A DNA stretch of 64,000 nt, taken from assembly GCF_000179915.2 (NCBI RefSeq), contig NC_014963.1, forward strand, positions 2,666,001 through 2,730,000, written 5' to 3'. Both the position numbers and the translations under genes were made by a program. The stretch comes from Terriglobus saanensis SP1PR4. GTDB lineage: Bacteria > Acidobacteriota > Terriglobia > Terriglobales > Acidobacteriaceae. The notes beneath the pieces are model-generated. The model was not told where the DNA came from and did no database searches. It saw only the letters and a program-made list of their open reading frames with translations. Of this stretch, positions 38,831-54,816 are shown piece after piece; the stretch's first letter is position 1; the number at the start of each line of letters is the position of its first letter.

Positions 38831-38910
38831 AGGTTTTCCTCACCGTCGCAGCCCCTGCAAGAAGGCTCCGACTTAGTTCCCATACGGTAGTCTCTTGCCG
38901 CAAGATGTAA

Positions 38911-38955
38911 CCATTCAGTCCTCAGCCGTTCTTATATAATTTTCGCTCACAGATG
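38911..38955. promoter_or_regulatory. Shared 45-bp regulatory element, copy 1
   Basis: CCATTCAGT, 7 variable bases, CGTTCTTATATA, one variable base, then TTTTCGCTCACAGATG. Copy 2 is at 43424-43468 and is identical at 39 of 45 positions by eye. It lies in the divergent region between phyH and araC and overlaps the AraC start. The rc reads TATATAAG, a possible -10 for the minus strand. Confidence 0.65.
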
Positions 38956-39816
38956 ATGTCACAGTTCAGCAAGTATTTCGCGATCAGCGCCCGTGATAAG
39001 ACATGGGGTCTCTACGTAACTGGAGTAGGACACGCAGAGCTTGCCTCGGATTCCGAATACCCACCTTCCATTCATCCCGATGCGTATCTCTTTCAGTGGG
39101 AGCGTGGCCGCGTTCTGGATGAATGCGTACTCTTGCATATCAAAAAGGGTGGTGGTGTATTCAGCAGCAACGAAACAGGAGAGATAAAACTGCGCATGGG
39201 CGATGTGCTCGTGATCGCCCCCCGCCAGTGGCATCGCTATCGGCCTGACCCAGCTACGGGGTGGGAAGAGTTCTGGGTAACTTTCGAGGGCCCGCTTGCA
39301 GACTCCTGGCGTTCAGAGGGTTTCTTCGACAAGAACAAGCCTGTGATTGCAACGAATTTACATTTCGATCTTGAAGAGACTTTCGAGCGAATGATCCATG
39401 TCGCGAAGCGCGAGCTGCATGCTCCTTATTTGATGGCAGGTCTTTGCCACAGTATCGTGGGCGCTGCTCTTTCGTTATCAAGCAGACTGGCCATGGACCC
39501 AAGCGAACGTCAACTTCTAGCCGCAGCAGAGTACCTGCGAAATCATTCGACGGTAGTCGATCTCGAGTGGCTTGCACGACAGAGCCGGATGAGCCCGAGC
39601 ACGTTCCGCCGCCGCTTTCATGATTATTTCGATTGCAGCCCAAGCACCTACCTCGCGGTTCAGAGGATCGGAGCAGCAAAGCGCTATCTGGCTGAAACGG
39701 ACTTGCCGCTGAAGAGAATTGCCGATCTGCTGGGATACTCTACCGAGTTTTATTTCATGCGTGTATTCAAGCAACACACTGGACTAACACCTTCTACATG
39801 GAGGCGTAGAGCTTGA
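38953..39816 (+). CDS. AraC-family transcription regulator with cupin-type sensor
   Basis: This 287-residue regulator has an N-terminal cupin-like ligand-binding domain (about 20-115; LLHIKKGGGVF, GDVLVIAPRQWHRYRP) and a C-terminal pair of helix-turn-helix motifs (about 190-287; DLEWLARQSRMSPSTFRRRF, with LPLKRIADLLGYSTEFYFMRVFKQHTGL in part). The DNA-binding half is well conserved. Ligand is presumably the sugar released by the neighbouring hydrolases. Candidate operator is the 45-bp element, which overlaps its start and recurs before the TonB receptor gene. A start at the second codon is also possible. Confidence 0.9.
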   Translation: MMSQFSKYFAISARDKTWGLYVTGVGHAELASDSEYPPSIHPDAYLFQWERGRVLDECVLLHIKKGGGVFSSNETGEIKLRMGDVLVIAPRQWHRYRPDPATGWEEFWVTFEGPLADSWRSEGFFDKNKPVIATNLHFDLEETFERMIHVAKRELHAPYLMAGLCHSIVGAALSLSSRLAMDPSERQLLAAAEYLRNHSTVVDLEWLARQSRMSPSTFRRRFHDYFDCSPSTYLAVQRIGAAKRYLAETDLPLKRIADLLGYSTEFYFMRVFKQHTGLTPSTWRRRA

Positions 39817-48690: not shown

Positions 48691-49128
48691 ATGAATTTGA
48701 CTAATGTGAAGCAACAAGACGAGTACAGACCCACCGTTCGCAAGTCGTGGCTGGTTGGCATGGCGAGTCTGGCGTTTATTCTGCTCCAAAGCGCATGCAC
48801 GGCGGTCATGGCAATCAGCGGCGTCCGTGTCCTGATCGGACTTAGCGCACTGGCAGCGGCTGCGGGATTAAACCGCCCTTCCAGCGGCTTCCATGCGGAC
48901 AAGATTCGCATTCCTATGATGGTGATTGCAGTAGCAGGTTCCATCCTGAACCTCTACGTCATCTGGCGCATACGCTCGCTGCGCGCACGGCCCGCATCGC
49001 AGTGGAGAGTGGAACCGGTCACTCCGGCAAAACGCAGGGCAGAAAACTGGCAGATCGCTCTTGCAGTCGTCACACTTCTTCTAGTCGTGGTCGAGGAAGC
49101 GACTCATCTTATCGTTCATAATGCCTGA
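48691..49128 (+). CDS. Three-helix inner membrane protein of unknown function
   Basis: This 145-residue protein shows three hydrophobic helices: WLVGMASLAFILLQSACTAV (about 22-42) continuing into VLIGLSALAAAAG, MMVIAVAGSILNLYVIW (about 75-92) and IALAVVTLLLVVVEEATHLI (about 122-142). Loops are basic. I do not recognise a family with known function. It is convergent with the anti-sigma gene (6-bp gap) and lacks the GTAACC promoter motif found elsewhere in this locus, so its link to it is positional only. Confidence 0.75.
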   Translation: MNLTNVKQQDEYRPTVRKSWLVGMASLAFILLQSACTAVMAISGVRVLIGLSALAAAAGLNRPSSGFHADKIRIPMMVIAVAGSILNLYVIWRIRSLRARPASQWRVEPVTPAKRRAENWQIALAVVTLLLVVVEEATHLIVHNA

Positions 49129-49134
49129 CGCATT

Positions 49135-49401
49135 CTAAGCAGGCCTTAGTGGCGGATCTTTCGTAAACTCTTGCTCCAGGCGCGAGTGAAGACGCTCGCT
49201 GAAACCAAGAGGCAACTCGAACACGCGGTCGTCCGCCGTGAGCACGAGAATGTTGCGCGTAGAATCCAAGATCGCTGAACAGATCTCACAGTGCTCCAGG
49301 TGGCGTTGCACCGTGTCGCGCGTGGCAGCGTCCAGCGTTCTATCCAGATATTCAGAGATGTAATTCCATACATGTTTGCACTCTATGACCATTGGAACCA
49401 C
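49135..49401 (-). CDS. Small soluble zinc-finger anti-sigma factor
   Basis: This 88-residue protein carries the ZAS (zf-HC2) motif: C8, then H34, C38 and C41 in VQRHLEHCEICSAIL. There is no transmembrane helix, so it is a cytoplasmic anti-sigma factor that would bind the ECF sigma factor and release it on metal loss or thiol oxidation. The start overlaps the end of the sigma gene by 19 bp; ATG at 49392 is an alternative, with a 10-bp overlap. It is the last gene of the DoxX, sigma, anti-sigma operon. Confidence 0.85.
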   Translation of the reverse strand: MVPMVIECKHVWNYISEYLDRTLDAATRDTVQRHLEHCEICSAILDSTRNILVLTADDRVFELPLGFSERLHSRLEQEFTKDPPLRPA

Positions 49402-50003
49402 CTCCTCTTTGGATTCAGTCGCTTTAGTTGTGGCGCGAGACTCTTTTGCAACATTAGTCGCGCGCGATGCAATCGAACTTTGATCGCTCCGATGCTTACC
49501 TGCAGTATTTCGGCAGCTTCGACGATGCTCAACTCTTCCACATCGCGCAGCACAAAGACTTCACGATAAATTTCAGGAAGCGAAGTAACAGCCTCCTGGA
49601 GCAGTAGCTTGATCTCCTGTCGCTCAAGCGCTTCGGACGGAATTTCTCGCCAATCCCGCAGCAGCGCCGGAGATACATGCCCTGGCTCATCCGGGTCTTC
49701 GTTGAGCGACTCTATCCTCACGGCACTTTTCCGCCGCAACCGGCTTCGCGCCTCATTCAGCACGATGCTTACGAGCCATGTCCCGAATTTTGACTCGCCG
49801 CGAAAGCTGGCAAGGTTGTGGAAAGCCTTCAAAAAAGCTTCCTGCGCAGCATCCTCGGCGTCCGCCTCATTGCGCAGAAACGAGAATGCCATCGCATACA
49901 CACTACGTTCGTAGGGCCGGATCAGTTCATGAAACAGTCGTGCATCGCCCGCGAGAATCGCTGCGATCATTTGCTGTTCATCGCGCTGTTCCATTTCAGA
50001 CAT
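49383..50003 (-). CDS. ECF-family RNA polymerase sigma factor
   Basis: This 206-residue sigma factor has region 2 (about 25-95; LIRPYERSVYAMAFSFLRN, with DAEDAAQEAFLKAF) and region 4 (about 135-190; EIYREVFVLRDVEELSIVEA, with GAIKVRLHRARLML). It lacks regions 1 and 3. It lies 2 bp after the DoxX gene and overlaps the anti-sigma gene. It is the likely reader of the GTAACC-N15-(G/A)(C/G)TC promoters found before its own operon, before DUF1223 and before the RiPP precursor, which would include autoregulation. Confidence 0.95.
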   Translation of the reverse strand: MSEMEQRDEQQMIAAILAGDARLFHELIRPYERSVYAMAFSFLRNEADAEDAAQEAFLKAFHNLASFRGESKFGTWLVSIVLNEARSRLRRKSAVRIESLNEDPDEPGHVSPALLRDWREIPSEALERQEIKLLLQEAVTSLPEIYREVFVLRDVEELSIVEAAEILQVSIGAIKVRLHRARLMLQKSLAPQLKRLNPKRRWFQWS

Positions 50004-50005
50004 CT

Positions 50006-50476
50006 CTACGCAACCTTGCCCTTGACGTACTTTTTCTCCAGGAGATAGTCGACTGAGAAGATCCCCGCCCCAAAAATCATCACCATCAATGAAGCGAAGA
50101 GAAACGTATAGGGATCAGCGACATAAAACTTGCCAGGATCGGAGAAGATCGAGGTCAACGCTTCATGATCCGCCGTCCAGTAGGCTACCAGCATATTGCC
50201 AGCTAGAAGTAGCCCGACGAATCGTGTAGCCAATCCAAGAACCAACAGAATCCCTCCCAAAAACTCCAGCCCAGATACAAAATGAGCACTCAAGGCGGGT
50301 AATGGAATATTCAAACTTGCGAAGAAATCAGTAATCTTCGCCAGACCATGCAGTTTGCCCCAGCCGTTTGTCATAAACTGCCAACCCCAGTAGAGCCGCA
50401 CAGCCAACAGCATCGGCGATTGCAAGTGCGAGGTTGCCGCAGTAAAGCGCGTGTACCAGTTGATTAAATGTTTCAT
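50006..50476 (-). CDS. DoxX-family membrane protein
   Basis: This 156-residue protein is a four-helix DoxX protein: PMLLAVRLYWGWQFMTNGWG at the N-terminus, FVSGLEFLGGILLVLGLATR, VGLLLAGNMLVAYW and YTFLFASLMVMIFGAGIF. DoxX-type proteins are often found with DUF692/DUF2063 genes in bufferin loci, where a role in electron transfer or redox protection in the membrane is presumed. It is the first gene of the operon with the sigma and anti-sigma genes, preceded by a GTAACC-type promoter at 50537-50561. Confidence 0.9.
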   Translation of the reverse strand: MKHLINWYTRFTAATSHLQSPMLLAVRLYWGWQFMTNGWGKLHGLAKITDFFASLNIPLPALSAHFVSGLEFLGGILLVLGLATRFVGLLLAGNMLVAYWTADHEALTSIFSDPGKFYVADPYTFLFASLMVMIFGAGIFSVDYLLEKKYVKGKVA

Positions 50477-50536
50477 CGTTCCTCATTTCTCGCGGGACTG
50501 AAACGTCGCGCATTTCCTCGAGTGACACCTGAATTA

Positions 50537-50561
50537 GAGCCTTCGATCTCCTGAAGGTTAC
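50537..50561 (-). promoter_or_regulatory. Candidate ECF promoter of the DoxX-sigma-antisigma operon
   Basis: On the minus strand GTAACC (50561-50556), 15-nt spacer, GCTC (50540-50537). The predicted transcript would start about 55 nt before the DoxX gene. The motif is shared with 50576-50600 and 52506-52530. Confidence 0.6.
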
Positions 50562-50575
50562 AACCTCAAATTCTT

Positions 50576-50600
50576 GTAACCCCTAGCCCCCAACACAGTC
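50576..50600 (+). promoter_or_regulatory. Candidate ECF promoter of the DUF1223 gene
   Basis: GTAACC (50576-50581), 15-nt spacer, AGTC (50597-50600), 28 bp before the ATG at 50628. It is back to back with the minus-strand copy, 14 bp apart. Confidence 0.6.
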
Positions 50601-50627
50601 CTATTCTCAGCTCATCTGAGGGAGCCA

Positions 50628-51428
50628 ATGATGTACAAACGAAAGAGAAATATGTTAGTTGGGTTGGCAGCAATTTTCACGGGAACGATTCTGCTCCTCT
50701 CTCCCTCATCAAAATCGGTCGCTTTTCAGACCGAGCGTGCCGCGAAACCCAAAGCCATACTTGTTGAACTTTTCACTTCCGAGGGTTGCTCCAGCTGCCC
50801 GCCTGCAGACGCTCTCCTGCGCGAGATCAATGGCAGCTCTACCCGCAATGGCCAGTTAATTGTCGGCATCAGTGAGCACGTCACCTACTGGAACCAGCTC
50901 GGCTGGGCCGATCCCTATTCAGCCCCCACCTACACCGACCGCCAGAATGCCTACGCCAATCGCTTTCACCTTGACAGCGTCTACACCCCCCAGATGGTTG
51001 TTAACGGCACCGACCAATTTGTTGGAAGTGACCATGCCAGCCTGCAGCGAGCCCTTCAGCATCAGCAGGACAAGCCCGAAACCGTCGCCATCCAGATTCT
51101 CTCCGCCAATATCGATGGCCGTGTGCTCGCGCTTCGCTTCTCCGCCAAGCCAGGCGACTCCCGCAAAGCCGTCGACCTCTTCGCCGTCATAGCCGACGAT
51201 GCCGACCGAACCAGCGTCTACCGCGGCGAAAACACCGGTCGCATCCTTTCTCACGTCTTCGTAGCCCGCATCTTCATCCGTATCGCCAAACTAAAGCCGA
51301 CACCCGGCCAAACCATTCAGCTTCCACTTCCAGGATCCTTCGTTGCGTCGCAACCACACCACCTCATTCTCTTTGCGCAGGCTACTGACAGCGGTGATGT
51401 TCTTGGAGTAGACACAAGGCCTTTTTAG
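50628..51428 (+). CDS. DUF1223 thioredoxin-fold secreted protein
   Basis: This 266-residue protein has an N-terminal signal or anchor helix (about 9-27) and the DUF1223 signature LVELFTSEGCSSCPPADALL (CxxC at about 51-54), followed by YWNQLGWADPYS and TPQMVVNGTDQFVGSD, which is a thioredoxin-like arrangement. The reaction is not established; disulfide or metal-thiol chemistry in the periplasm is a fair inference. Family members are common in bufferin-type neighbourhoods of metal-stressed bacteria. It is preceded by a GTAACC promoter and followed after 44 bp by the peptidase gene. Confidence 0.85.
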   Translation: MMYKRKRNMLVGLAAIFTGTILLLSPSSKSVAFQTERAAKPKAILVELFTSEGCSSCPPADALLREINGSSTRNGQLIVGISEHVTYWNQLGWADPYSAPTYTDRQNAYANRFHLDSVYTPQMVVNGTDQFVGSDHASLQRALQHQQDKPETVAIQILSANIDGRVLALRFSAKPGDSRKAVDLFAVIADDADRTSVYRGENTGRILSHVFVARIFIRIAKLKPTPGQTIQLPLPGSFVASQPHHLILFAQATDSGDVLGVDTRPF

Positions 51429-51472
51429 CTGCAACCCTTGCCGCAGCCATCTGCCGAGAGGAAGTGCTGACG

Positions 51473-52435
51473 ATGGAATGCAATCTCCGCCAAACTCTCT
51501 GCGTCCTCACGCTGTTTGTCGCATCTGCGTTCAGCGCCGGACCAAATACCCACTATGAGCCGCACATCGCGTTCACCCAAACCTTCGGCATCGATACCTC
51601 TACGCTGCAAGTTGATTTCGCTGACGGCCCACTTGACCTCCCCCGTACCGCCATCACTGAACGCATCCAATGGGCTGCTCACGCTGTGGCCCTTTACTAC
51701 GGACATTTCCCTGTTCCCAGGGCCCGCATCCTTATCCTCCCCGTCGCCAACGGCGACCGCGTTTTGCAAGGCACGACCTGGGGCGCTCGAGATGGCTTCC
51801 CAGCCTTTCTCCGCCTTCGCATCGGGCAGTCCATCACGCGCGAAGGATTGACCACCGACTGGATCATTACCCATGAACTCGTCCACACCGCCCTGCCTTC
51901 GCTGCCGGACGATCAGCATTGGCTTGAAGAAGGCCTCGCCAGCTACGTCGAACCAATCGCCCGCGTTCAGGCAGGCGAGATGTCCCCGGAAAGTATCTGG
52001 GCCGACATGCTCCGAGGCATGATCCATGGCGAACCTGAGCAAGGCGATCGCGGCCTCAACAACACCCACACATGGGGACGCACCTACTGGGGTGGAGCGC
52101 TCTTCTGCCTCGTCGCCGACATCGAAATCCATCGTCAGACCCACAACCGTCTTGGTCTGCAAGACGCTCTCCGCGCCATCGTTCGTTCGGGCGGCACAAT
52201 CGACAAAGAGTGGCCTACCGCCCGCGTTCTCAAGACAGGAGACACAGCGACCGGCACCCACGTCCTTGAGCAAATGTACGCTCGCTGGTCAAGCGCTCCA
52301 GTACCTGTCGACCTGCCAAAGCTCTGGCGACAACTCGGCGTACGTAGTGCGAACGGCATCATCAGCTTCGACTCCTCCGCTCCGGACGCCGCCATCCGTA
52401 CGGCCATTACCCAGCCCAGGACCGCTACGCCATAG
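51473..52435 (+). CDS. Secreted gluzincin-like metallopeptidase
   Basis: This 320-residue protein has a signal peptide (about 1-22, ending SAFSAG). I start at ATG 51473, which has AGAGGA 10 bp upstream; GTG at 51464 is too close to that site. The zinc site reads HELVHTAL (HExxH) and, 18 residues on, WLEEGLASY, whose glutamate gives the third ligand as in M1/M61-type gluzincins, so the enzyme looks active. The rest is unassigned. It lies between DUF1223 and the RiPP precursor on the same strand. A role in processing a secreted precursor or in degrading misfolded proteins is speculative. Confidence 0.75.
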   Translation: MECNLRQTLCVLTLFVASAFSAGPNTHYEPHIAFTQTFGIDTSTLQVDFADGPLDLPRTAITERIQWAAHAVALYYGHFPVPRARILILPVANGDRVLQGTTWGARDGFPAFLRLRIGQSITREGLTTDWIITHELVHTALPSLPDDQHWLEEGLASYVEPIARVQAGEMSPESIWADMLRGMIHGEPEQGDRGLNNTHTWGRTYWGGALFCLVADIEIHRQTHNRLGLQDALRAIVRSGGTIDKEWPTARVLKTGDTATGTHVLEQMYARWSSAPVPVDLPKLWRQLGVRSANGIISFDSSAPDAAIRTAITQPRTATP

Positions 52436-52505
52436 CTATATGGTGAATAGCGATAAACACCGGTTGGACAAATTTATTCCCCAGAAAATTAATTTAAATT
52501 CTTCT

Positions 52506-52530
52506 GTAACCTATTCCAATTTTGCCGCTC
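52506..52530 (+). promoter_or_regulatory. Candidate ECF promoter of the RiPP precursor operon
   Basis: GTAACC (52506-52511), 15-nt spacer, GCTC (52527-52530), the same -10-like tetranucleotide as before the DoxX operon. It leaves a leader of about 140 nt before the precursor ATG. The surrounding 50 bp are AT-rich. Confidence 0.6.
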
Positions 52531-52679
52531 AAAGGTGCAGTATGGGAAACGCTTCGTCCAGTGAATCTAGATTCAGATGGCTTGTGCGTTCGTTTCACTG
52601 TACGGAGAATGAGCAATCAAACTTCAACCCTAACGGCCTGCGCGCCTGCGCGGCCCTAACCATAGAAAGGTTCATCCTC

Positions 52680-52961
52680 ATGAACAATTCAACAAAGTCT
52701 TTCGCTTTGGCCGCGGCATTCGCAGGTCTTCTTGGTGGCACCGCGGTCCGCATGAATGCTCAGCCAACCAACAACGCCCCAACGACCGCCACCGCTGGCG
52801 TCATGATCGCTCAGGACAAACAGGATGTACCCAAACACTCCTGTAAGGGCAAGAACGATTGCAAGGGTCAGGGCGGTGGCGACAAGAAGCATGCCGGCAA
52901 GAACTCCTGCAAGGGTCAGGGTGCTTGCGCAACGGACGGATCCAAGCCAAAGGCCTCGTAA
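52680..52961 (+). CDS. bufA: Bufferin-like RiPP metallophore precursor (four-cysteine, secreted)
   Basis: This 93-residue precursor has a Sec-type signal (MNNSTKSFALAAAFAGLLGG, cleavage probable near residue 28) and a Gly/Lys/Cys-rich core. Cysteines are at 55, 61, 77 and 83, as two copies of C-K-G-x3-C (CKGKNDC and CKGQGAC) separated by GQGGGDKKHAGKNS. This matches BufA2-type precursors described for DUF692 enzymes, which convert Cys to thiooxazoles that bind copper. The ATG at 52680 has AAAGG upstream; the open frame continues back to 52026 only through antisense-like coding noise of the peptidase gene. It is followed by a hairpin and then the DUF692 and DUF2063 genes. The family is inferred from the sequence pattern and context. 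Confidence 0.8.
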   Translation: MNNSTKSFALAAAFAGLLGGTAVRMNAQPTNNAPTTATAGVMIAQDKQDVPKHSCKGKNDCKGQGGGDKKHAGKNSCKGQGACATDGSKPKAS

Positions 52962-52972
52962 TCTCGCGGTAG

Positions 52973-53003
52973 CATGGAGGCCTGGCACTTTCAGGCCTCC
53001 ATG
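52973..53003 (+). terminator. Hairpin between precursor and MNIO enzyme gene (attenuator-type)
   Basis: A perfect 12-bp stem (CATGGAGGCCTG / CAGGCCTCCATG, loop GCACTTT) followed by TCTATCTCT. It would let the precursor be made in excess of the enzymes by partial termination or by 3'-end protection. Confidence 0.75.
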
Positions 53004-53038
53004 TCTATCTCTGCACAACGTAACCCTCGGAGCCAGCT

Positions 53039-53920
53039 ATGCCAGCAAATCGTTTTAACGGATTCACAGACTACGGGGTAGGCATCGGTTTGCGCGTTCC
53101 GCACTACGAGCACATCTTCACAGAAAAACCGGTTGTCGATTGGTTTGAGATCATCTCCGAAAACTATATGGTGGACGGCGGCCGACCGCTCCATGTTCTC
53201 GACCAGATCCTCGATCAGTACCGGGTCGTCCAACACGGCGTCTCCATGTATTTTGGTTCCGCGCAGCCGCTTGATCGAGAACACCTCAAGCGTCTTAAGA
53301 CACTCACCAAACGTACCAAGACCCCTTGGCTCTCCGACCATCTTTGCTGGGGCTCGGTCGACGGCACCTACACACATGACCTCCTGCCGCTTCCCTATAC
53401 ATTCGAGGCAGCACGCATCACCGCGCAGCGCATTCGCGAAGTCCAGGACTTCCTCGAGATCCCCATTGCAGTAGAAAACGTCAGTAGCTATGCAGAGTTC
53501 CACGAATCTGAAATGACGGAATGGGAGTTTCTCAACGAAGTCGTCCATGCAGCAGACTGCGGAATCCTCCTGGACGTCAACAACATCTACGTCTCCTCCC
53601 AGAACCATAACTTTGATCCCATGGTCTACGTCGACGCCGTTCCAGCCGACCGCGTTGCTCAGGTCCACATCGCAGGCCATTCCAAGTTTGAGAAGTATAC
53701 CCTCGATACGCACGATCACCCAGTCCTTGATCCGGTCTGGAAGATGTACGCCCGCGCCATTGAACGCGTCGGCGTTACCGCCACTCTCCTGGAATGGGAT
53801 GACAACATTCCGACCTTCGATGAGGTCCACAACGAAGCCCTCAAGGCCAACCGCTACCTTAATGCCACACCTACCAGCACCGCGTTGCCGAAAGCCATCA
53901 CGCAAGAGGCCCGTGTATGA
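53039..53920 (+). CDS. bufB: DUF692 multinuclear iron oxidase (MNIO) of the BufB/MbnB family
   Basis: This 293-residue TIM-barrel enzyme has the DUF692 landmarks: GIGLRVPHYEH, VDWFEIISENYM, VQHGVSMYFGS, WLSDHLCWGS, VENVSSYAEF, LLDVNNIYVSS, VHIAGHSK, THDHPVLD and LLEWDDNIP, giving the His/Asp/Glu ligands of an iron cluster. Family members, with O2, convert cysteines of a precursor peptide into thiooxazole or related heterocycles. The neighbouring precursor with four CKG-type cysteines is the likely substrate and the overlapping DUF2063 protein the binding partner. It acts in the cytoplasm before export. A GGAG ribosome site lies 8 bp before the ATG. No frame defects are seen. Confidence 0.95.
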   Translation: MPANRFNGFTDYGVGIGLRVPHYEHIFTEKPVVDWFEIISENYMVDGGRPLHVLDQILDQYRVVQHGVSMYFGSAQPLDREHLKRLKTLTKRTKTPWLSDHLCWGSVDGTYTHDLLPLPYTFEAARITAQRIREVQDFLEIPIAVENVSSYAEFHESEMTEWEFLNEVVHAADCGILLDVNNIYVSSQNHNFDPMVYVDAVPADRVAQVHIAGHSKFEKYTLDTHDHPVLDPVWKMYARAIERVGVTATLLEWDDNIPTFDEVHNEALKANRYLNATPTSTALPKAITQEARV

Positions 53921-54816
53921 CGCTCCTTGAACTCCAGCGCCAGATGGCGAACGACGTCCGCCGACCTCTCACGCCAGACTTTGAGATGCAGCAACAAACG
54001 GAAGACGGTCGCTCCATGGAAGACATCGCCTCCGGCTATATCAAGCCGAACGACCGTCTCACTTCCTTCGACCGCCTCGAAATCTATAACCGTCAGTATT
54101 GGTTCCGCGTCATCTCTGCCGTTTCCGAGGACTTCCCCGCTCTCGCCGCCGTCCTTGGCTCCAAACGTTTTGACGCCCTTGTTCTCGCCTATCTCAAAGA
54201 GAATCCCAGCACCTCGTTCACGCTCCGCAACCTCGGCGCACGACTTCCTGTATGGCTAAACGGTCATCCTGAATTCTCTCCTAAAGCAAAGCATGCCCTC
54301 ATCCTCGACGTCGCCGGACTTGAATGGGCTTATGTCGAATCGTTCGACCGTGCCAGGATCAGATCCCTGACGCTCGAAGACCTGGCTGGCCTTGACGGCG
54401 ACTCCAAACTTTCGCTGCAGCCGCACCTGCAACTCCTTGCTCTCAACTATCCCGTCGACGAACTCGTGCTCGCCGTGCGCAAGCAGACCCCTGAGTACGA
54501 CATGATGAGCAACGCCGTATCGGAACTCACCGTCCATACCCGCCCTAAGCTTCCCAGCATGAGACGTGCTCGCGTCTTCCTTGCAGTGCATCGGTTTGAT
54601 AATTCCGTTTACTACCGCCGCATCGACCATGAAGCCTACCTTCTCTTCGTCTCCTTGCAGCAGCGTCGTACCCTGGGTGAATCTCTCGAAGTTTCCTTTG
54701 CAGCAAGCAAACTGACTCCCCAACAGCAAGCCGCGAAGATCCAACAATACTTTGCCCACGCGGCAGAACTCGGCTGGTTTTGCGACCTCCCCGTAGACGT
54801 GATTGGCGTGCAATAG
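53917..54816 (+). CDS. bufC: DUF2063 partner protein (BufC-like)
   Basis: This 299-residue protein overlaps the DUF692 gene by 4 bp (ATGA). Its N-terminal half is the DUF2063 domain (LLELQRQMANDVR, then RLEIYNRQYWFRVISAVSED and FPALAAVLGSKRFDAL), formerly called a putative DNA-binding domain but now understood as the recruiter of the precursor to the MNIO enzyme. The C-terminal half (about 150-299) carries winged-helix-like elements ending QQYFAHAAELGWF. The gene order precursor, MNIO, DUF2063 is the standard bufABC order. No other gene follows before the Asp-box gene. Confidence 0.9.
   Translation: MTLLELQRQMANDVRRPLTPDFEMQQQTEDGRSMEDIASGYIKPNDRLTSFDRLEIYNRQYWFRVISAVSEDFPALAAVLGSKRFDALVLAYLKENPSTSFTLRNLGARLPVWLNGHPEFSPKAKHALILDVAGLEWAYVESFDRARIRSLTLEDLAGLDGDSKLSLQPHLQLLALNYPVDELVLAVRKQTPEYDMMSNAVSELTVHTRPKLPSMRRARVFLAVHRFDNSVYYRRIDHEAYLLFVSLQQRRTLGESLEVSFAASKLTPQQQAAKIQQYFAHAAELGWFCDLPVDVIGVQ

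Follow-up and report, generated by a model that had tools for sequence, protein, structure and literature searches.

A probable bufferin-like metallophore locus with a local ECF sigma factor and zinc-type anti-sigma factor in Terriglobus saanensis SP1PR4

Composition of the locus

The window analysed here is a stretch of 64,000 nucleotides (nt), bases 2666001-2730000 of the single-contig 5,095,226-bp genome of Terriglobus saanensis SP1PR4. It carries a locus resembling those of the bufferins, metallophores of the ribosomally synthesized and post-translationally modified peptide (RiPP) kind, together with genes for an extracytoplasmic function (ECF) sigma factor and a zinc-type anti-sigma factor (ZAS). 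The gene inventory was based on a listing of open reading frames (ORFs) and on Pfam and NCBIfam scans of the window proteins, and three transcription units were distinguished. One, on the plus strand, comprises a BufA-like precursor of 93 amino acids (aa) with four cysteines (52680-52961), an MNIO enzyme (DUF692) of the BufB type (53039-53920; PF05114, E 9.3e-109) and a DUF2063 partner of the BufC/HvfC type (53917-54816; PF09836, E 4.7e-16), whose gene overlaps the MNIO gene by 4 bp. The second, on the same strand, encodes a DUF1223 protein (50628-51428; PF06764, E 5.1e-59) and a gluzincin-type metallopeptidase of 323 aa with an HELVH motif and EE downstream (51464-52435). The third, on the minus strand, is headed by the gene for a DoxX-family membrane protein (50006-50476; PF07681, E 1.8e-20), followed by those for the ECF sigma factor (49383-50003; Sigma70_r2 and r4_2, NCBIfam sigma70-ECF E 1.9e-32) and the 88-aa ZAS (49135-49401; zf-HC2, E 9.7e-11); these genes are tightly packed or overlapping, the ZAS gene overlapping that of the sigma factor. 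All the genes named in a preliminary description, which placed the locus at 50006-54816, are present in the window, with the sigma/anti-sigma pair (49135-50003) lying beyond those limits.

The bufferin identity proposed there held for the enzyme and fell short for the precursor. The MNIO scored 354.2 bits with NCBIfam MNIO_BufB (cut-off 310) and matched PDB 3bww with E 2.5e-51 in a phmmer search, the stretches HG, DH, EN, LDVNN, HIAGH and DTH being in common. The adjoining DUF2063 protein passed the PF09836 cut-off (59.3 vs 27.2 bits), stayed under that of NCBIfam HvfC (39 vs 142 bits) and gave no match at E<=0.1 in a PDB sequence search. The best NCBIfam match of the DoxX protein was the HvfX family, at 62.1 bits against a cut-off of 80. 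The sole NCBIfam match of the precursor was BufA2 (E 4.9e-6), with 26.6 bits against a cut-off of 60; ten chosen precursors, including that of the window and six-cysteine ones, scored 19.5-43.3 bits with BufA2, their best match in NCBIfam. By eye, the precursor N-terminus appears signal-like, with a Lys near the start, a hydrophobic stretch and a possible NA/QP site. Beyond the window, this genome has one more MNIO-like match, a distant one of 28% identity (G000:C1:19035-19586).

Buf2 precursors (Buf_6/12Cys, BufA2) are described in a 2025 survey as having six cysteines in 90% of cases and twelve in the remainder (PMC12452194). Compared with the Buf2 clusters described in that text, the locus shares the signal-like precursor, the CKG repeats, the BufB-type MNIO, the DUF2063 protein and a nearby DoxX gene, and differs in having four cysteines, an ECF sigma factor with a ZAS, the DUF1223 protein and the gluzincin.

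The ZAS carries the zinc motif C8-X25-H34-X3-C38-X2-C41, present in all 42 locus homologues, and so conforms to the pattern of a small soluble protein with C/H-X23-26-H-X3-C-X2-C adjoining an ECF sigma factor, solubility being judged by inspection. It did not reach the cut-off of the RsrA equivalog TIGR03988 (33.3 vs 62.5 bits), and no match to NrsF was found among ten scanned window proteins, the sigma-adjoining gene being that of the zf-HC2 protein. The preliminary view, in which a RiPP locus resembling those of bufferins has an ECF/anti-sigma pair close by, is supported.

Conservation in related genomes

The preliminary description had made its reading depend on conservation of the locus, and the core was found to be kept in related genomes. 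For the comparison, the best 80 of 429 stretches encoding a relative were used as named loci with a close MNIO; by their titles 75 are from Acidobacteriota, 4 are of the Verrucomicrobia type and 1 is from Betaproteobacteria, most being metagenome bins. The window proteins were matched by tblastn (E <= 1e-3) in 80 (DUF2063), 77 (precursor), 72 (DoxX), 45 (ECF sigma factor, 42 of them at E<1e-30), 42 (ZAS), 15 (gluzincin) and 10 (DUF1223) of the 80 loci, and since some loci end at contig edges these counts are lower bounds. Because its members recur together, in rearranged form, the gene set is not a product of chance. The locus is real, conserved and coherent.

The exact gene arrangement, taken in the preliminary description as the notable point, was ruled out as the key novelty. 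The window's whole gene order occurs in none of the 80 loci, the 42 loci with a strong ECF match show 15 distinct orders, and an unbroken DUF1223-gluzincin-precursor-MNIO-DUF2063 run occurs in three further loci that were inspected (L043, L145 and L146), none of which has an adjacent ECF match. The DUF1223 gene is broadly distributed: it was found in 165 of 399 genomes of the class, only 78 of them with an MNIO, and it was dismissed as a dedicated part.

Among the same 399 class genomes an MNIO was found in 124 (E <= 1e-30) and a ZAS match in 111 (E <= 1e-12). Within the family, where the threshold for ZAS orthologues was set by hand at ~E 1e-28, 54 genomes have an MNIO, with a ZAS orthologue within 8 kb in 42, elsewhere in 7 and none in 5; a further 5 genomes have the ZAS orthologue and no MNIO. 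Class-wide (~E 1e-26), a ZAS orthologue was found in 74 genomes; 53 of these have an MNIO, and 15 of the other 21 share one genus code (g30).

In one genome (G402) a precursor lies with ECF, ZAS, DoxX and DUF1223 genes (L144, from ~9005), but the matches there to the MNIO (48%, E 1e-18) and to DUF2063 are weaker, and the close MNIO of that genome is located elsewhere. This locus is possibly a decaying second copy.

A common promoter motif and predicted control by the sigma factor

The motif TGTAACC-N17-TC was first spotted by eye in three upstream regions of the window, and the 80 loci provided an independent test. TGTAACC-N17-TCNNA sites precede all three transcription units of the locus and are candidate ECF promoters: TGTAACC-N17-TCTAA at 50534-50562 on the minus strand before DoxX-ECF-ZAS, TGTAACC-N17-TCCTA at 50575-50603 on the plus strand before DUF1223-gluzincin, and TGTAACC-N17-TCAAA at 52505-52533, also on the plus strand, before precursor-MNIO-DUF2063. 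The pattern TGTAACCN{16,18}TCNWA has four matches in the window, three of them in the locus, against a mean of 0.09 in the shuffled window, and seven in the whole genome, three of which are again those of the locus, one before each unit. The fourth window match (TGTAACC-N17-TCTTA, 38906-38934, plus strand) lies 18 nt before an ORF judged AraC-like by eye (38953-39816) and could be due to chance.

In the 1.16 Mb of the 80 loci, TGTAAC[CT]N16-18TCNNA has 90 matches, whereas permuted -35 boxes gave a mean of 7.7 and a maximum of 24. For TGTAACC a spacer of 17 yielded 61 matches and every other spacer from 10 to 23 yielded 0-7. Sites were then counted per gene in the interval between 350 nt before the start and 20 nt beyond it; upstream stretches no longer than 100 nt were dropped, which left 75 of the 77 precursors. 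They were found upstream of the precursor in 39/75 cases, DoxX in 19/72, DUF1223 in 5/10, ECF in 3/45 and the membrane protein described below in 3/32, and never upstream of MNIO (0/79), DUF2063 (0/80), ZAS (0/42) or gluzincin (0/15). With 60 permuted -35 boxes the corresponding number for the precursor had a mean of 0.05 and a maximum of 1.

In an Edaphobacter-like group that has ECF and ZAS genes and lacks TGTAACC, inspection by eye showed TGTTAC[CT] with an unchanged spacer. Since the TGTTACC variant was adopted only once the sequences lacking TGTAACC had been inspected, both strict and relaxed counts were made. The relaxed motif TGTWACY-N17-TC precedes 44 of 74 precursors (upstream stretches under 250 nt left out, 74 of 77 kept), in comparison to a mean of 0.375 and a maximum of 3 for 200 permuted boxes; it was present before 34 of 41 precursors with an adjacent strong ECF match and before 10 of 33 without one (Fisher p 5e-6). 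Where ECF/ZAS are unlinked the sites persist, before the precursor and DUF1223 in L145, before DUF1223 in L146 and L148 and before the precursor and DoxX in L147, which fits control in trans. Among 16 chosen ZAS contexts, 12 were read as having a site immediately before the ECF unit or the DoxX-ECF unit. A short, 78%-identical ECF match lies beside DoxX in L148 (G342, ~4625), the full ECF/ZAS pair of that genome being 347 kb away, and is possibly a remnant of a moved switch.

In relatives the motif also precedes genes for AhpC/TSA redoxins, for a cytochrome b561 and, next in line, a molybdopterin oxidoreductase, for a pyridine nucleotide-disulphide oxidoreductase that contains an NDH2 domain, and for DUF7482, lactonase-like propeller and DM13 proteins. 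These types of genes look like envelope redox and metal stress functions, close to the regulons of Neisseria and Haemophilus. All seven redoxins have a site, which is not independent support since they were found through the motif. A genome of the same genus without an MNIO (G005) has an ECF/ZAS locus (L129, 4844-9594) in which the motif precedes the genes for DUF1223, for an AhpC/TSA redoxin and for a cytochrome b561/molybdopterin oxidoreductase pair.

The operon controlled by SigF in Caulobacter is a bufferin cluster with a Buf1 precursor, and in Haemophilus the precursor, HvfA, belongs to the EGKCG type. The Caulobacter SigF/NrsF system resembles the window in having an ECF gene that adjoins the controlled operon, a GTAACC -35 box and a connection with metal stress, and differs in its membrane anti-sigma factor NrsF and in N16-CGAA (PMC3511200); according to the survey text, sigma and NrsF genes occur in Buf1 and not in Buf2 clusters (PMC12452194). 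Other known systems are sigma-E/MseR of Neisseria (NMB2140-2145) and RpoE2/HrsE of Haemophilus, in which an ECF sigma factor with a soluble zinc-type anti-sigma factor is reported to control genes for DoxX, a periplasmic protein, COG3220 (DUF692) and DUF2063 (PMC2893595, PMC7907618). Sigma control of such genes is therefore not new in kind, and the soluble anti-sigma factor, put forward as a novelty in the preliminary description, loses that status. As described, Neisseria sigma-E is autoregulated, in common with the scheme predicted here, and uses a GTMAGBWTT -35 box with a 12-13 nt spacer, unlike TGTAACC-N17 (PMC2893595), and the Haemophilus DoxX cluster forms a separate locus (PMC7907618).

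The regulons of Neisseria and Haemophilus respond to oxidative stress and include the methionine sulfoxide reductase msrAB (PMC2893595, PMC7907618), and rpoE2 of Haemophilus rises under HOCl and H2O2 (PMC7907618). Together with the motif before redoxins and the cytochrome b561/molybdopterin oxidoreductase pair in relatives, these data speak for a rival reading, in which the locus would serve a response to oxidative or thiol stress, with copper as neither the chief inducer nor the chief ligand, and the modified peptide would act as a redox sink or bind some other metal. This explanation is possible, if doubtful: Buf1 of Caulobacter is reported to bind copper via thiooxazoles and to aid growth in excess copper (PMC12452194), and the window MNIO is of the BufB type. 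Since copper stress also oxidises thiols, the copper and thiol-stress readings can both hold.

The promoter sites, together with a ZAS orthologue near the MNIO in 42 of the 54 family genomes, make the predicted control of the bufferin genes by the sigma factor well supported at the sequence level, and the preliminary suggestion that the pair induces the set is strengthened by the candidate sites common to all three units. The locus is probably of the Buf2 bufferin kind and run as a local regulon of the ECF sigma factor. Several results weigh against that. The precursor, with four rather than six cysteines, does not reach the BufA2 cut-off. A reversed-pattern control gave eight genome-wide matches against the seven real ones, and a wider pattern had 13 real matches against 10 in its control, so that no regulon can be claimed outside the locus in this genome. 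Phylogenetically independent pairs on the MNIO tree (5 supported) show no link between motif and ECF adjacency (sign test median p 1), the 21 of 74 ZAS-orthologue genomes without an MNIO indicate that the switch has other targets, and the motif, predicted before the test to precede unlinked gluzincin genes, was found in only 5 of 20. The sites in those five are similar and come from related genomes, and the largest of 200 permuted boxes also gave 5; one-mismatch sites seen afterwards were not counted.

The independent pairs, the genomes without an MNIO and the 35 of 80 loci without an ECF match near the MNIO could also mean that the ECF/ZAS pair is a mere neighbour regulating other genes, the bufferin operon being expressed from a different promoter. 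This is very improbable, as the identical motif with fixed spacing stands before both the precursor and the sigma unit and persists where the ECF gene lies elsewhere. A wide sigma regulon in this genome was also considered and is not supported, the ORFs downstream of the other sites having no common theme by eye.

The ZAS gene is convergent with a gene overlooked in the preliminary description, which encodes a 145-aa membrane protein (48691-49128, plus strand) with only a sub-cut-off Pfam match. It was matched by tblastn in 32 of the 80 loci, and the alignment of the 32 sequences has C36, H68, R73, E135 and H139 among its invariant residues. In 15 of 16 chosen ZAS contexts (L129-L144) it adjoins the ZAS gene, mostly convergently, and it is usually found there also in genomes without an MNIO. 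The structural model (pLDDT 80, pTM 0.56) gave no match at E<=0.001 in a fold search. The protein is possibly linked to signal sensing.

The precursor, the gluzincin and the proposed pathway

Total cysteine numbers in the 77 locus precursors were six in 45, four in 24, five in 4, eight in 3 and seven in 1, a tally that includes some sequences that are partial, misread or counted with cysteines of the signal region. For the mature part, scored in the 74 precursors with enough upstream sequence (loci near contig ends left out), the numbers were six in 45, four in 25, five in 2, and seven and eight in 1 each. The four-cysteine form is the six-cysteine pattern minus the third and fourth Cys (e.g. 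CKGQGGCKSSDNGCKGKNSC vs CKGQGGGDKKHAGKNSC), and the change between the two states requires three events on the MNIO protein tree. The loss of these two residues as a pair suggests that in Buf2 the third and fourth Cys may form a pair, e.g. a disulfide. The four-cysteine form accompanies DUF1223 in 9 of 10 loci. In an Antarctic soil sample DUF692 was reported in about half of the RiPP clusters, the gammaproteobacterial ones analysed having six-cysteine precursors (PMC8692599).

The absence of two of the six Buf2 cysteines and the low BufA2 score could reflect a decayed bufferin that has lost its modification. Such decay is scarcely credible when a third of the scored loci (25/74) have the four-cysteine form, every one of them next to matches for MNIO and DUF2063 and all but five with a promoter site (20 of 25), and when the CKG motifs are retained.

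The gluzincin has a signal-like N-terminus and gave no Pfam or NCBIfam match at E<=0.1 and nothing at E<=1 when searched against PDB sequences. In an alignment of 13 sequences H137, E138, H141, E155 and E156 are invariant. Its model (pLDDT 88.5) matched M1/M61 peptidases in Foldseek (4fgm, E 1.3e-8, TMq 0.60; 6kp0, 1.6e-8; 7xyo, 2.6e-8), which points to an M1/M61-like enzyme with the HEXXH motif, the downstream Glu of the zinc site and the catalytic-domain fold. It differs from those peptidases in its lack of a Pfam match, its length of 323 aa and an identity of 14-18% in three alignments. The companion DUF1223 protein has a signal-like N-terminus and a CSSC motif, appears thioredoxin-like by inspection and matched PDB 2axo (E 2.7e-24).

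The gluzincin was found in 58 of the 399 class genomes (E <= 1e-20), 57 of them with an MNIO, in all cases of the type at least ~73% identical to that of the window (96 genomes at a cut set by hand); these are raw counts, uncorrected for relatedness and genome size. Both genes lie within 8 kb in 26 of the 58 genomes, split contigs possibly concealing some others.

That the gluzincin and DUF1223 genes are unrelated ones settled in the gap would agree with the rarity of the exact gene order, the breadth of DUF1223, the uncorrected co-occurrence counts and the motif before few unlinked gluzincin genes. It is nevertheless unlikely: the gluzincin is almost confined to genomes with an MNIO, though 32 of the 58 have none within 8 kb on the same contig, and it is found downstream of DoxX in other lineages too. 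The gluzincin may act in bufferin processing or recycling. According to the survey, further conserved genes occur in extremely low proportions in bufferin clusters (PMC12452194), and one related cluster is reported to encode no nearby protease (PMC12538549).

In the resting cell the cytoplasmic ZAS would hold the ECF sigma factor and, by analogy with RsrA, MseR and HrsE, would let it go once the thiols of the Cys/His zinc site are oxidised or a metal attacks that site. The freed sigma factor would then start transcription at the three TGTAACC-N17-TCNNA sites. The MNIO and its DUF2063 partner would oxidise precursor cysteines in the cytosol, probably to thiooxazoles, and the Sec signal would export the modified peptide, which could chelate copper in the periplasm as Caulobacter bufferins do. 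DoxX and the DUF1223 protein may act on the thiol redox state of the envelope, and the gluzincin, probably a periplasmic peptidase, would trim or recycle the bufferin. A stronger version, judged rather less probable than not, is that the bufferins of Acidobacteria come with a secreted M1/M61-like peptidase dedicated to trimming them or freeing their metal, so that modification, export and processing form one pathway under a single ECF-ZAS switch, with a four-cysteine precursor that shows which cysteines are dispensable.

No report of an acidobacterial bufferin with a sigma switch was found, judged by titles and abstract openings mostly outside subscription journals, and none of such a locus among those on copper, ECF sigma factors and Acidobacteria, by title or abstract opening. 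A word search of the main text of PMC12452194, figures and supplements lying outside it, gave no occurrence of 'acidobacteri', 'DUF1223' or 'peptidase'. As far as the literature was searched, the ECF-ZAS pair over a Buf2-like precursor, the four-cysteine form and the accompanying peptidase seem not to have been described. With its concrete candidate promoter, the locus would link a Buf2-like metallophore of soil Acidobacteria with an ECF-ZAS stress switch, and it offers a small candidate regulon, a natural four-cysteine substrate that may tell which cysteines are modified or in a disulfide, and a candidate bufferin-processing peptidase.

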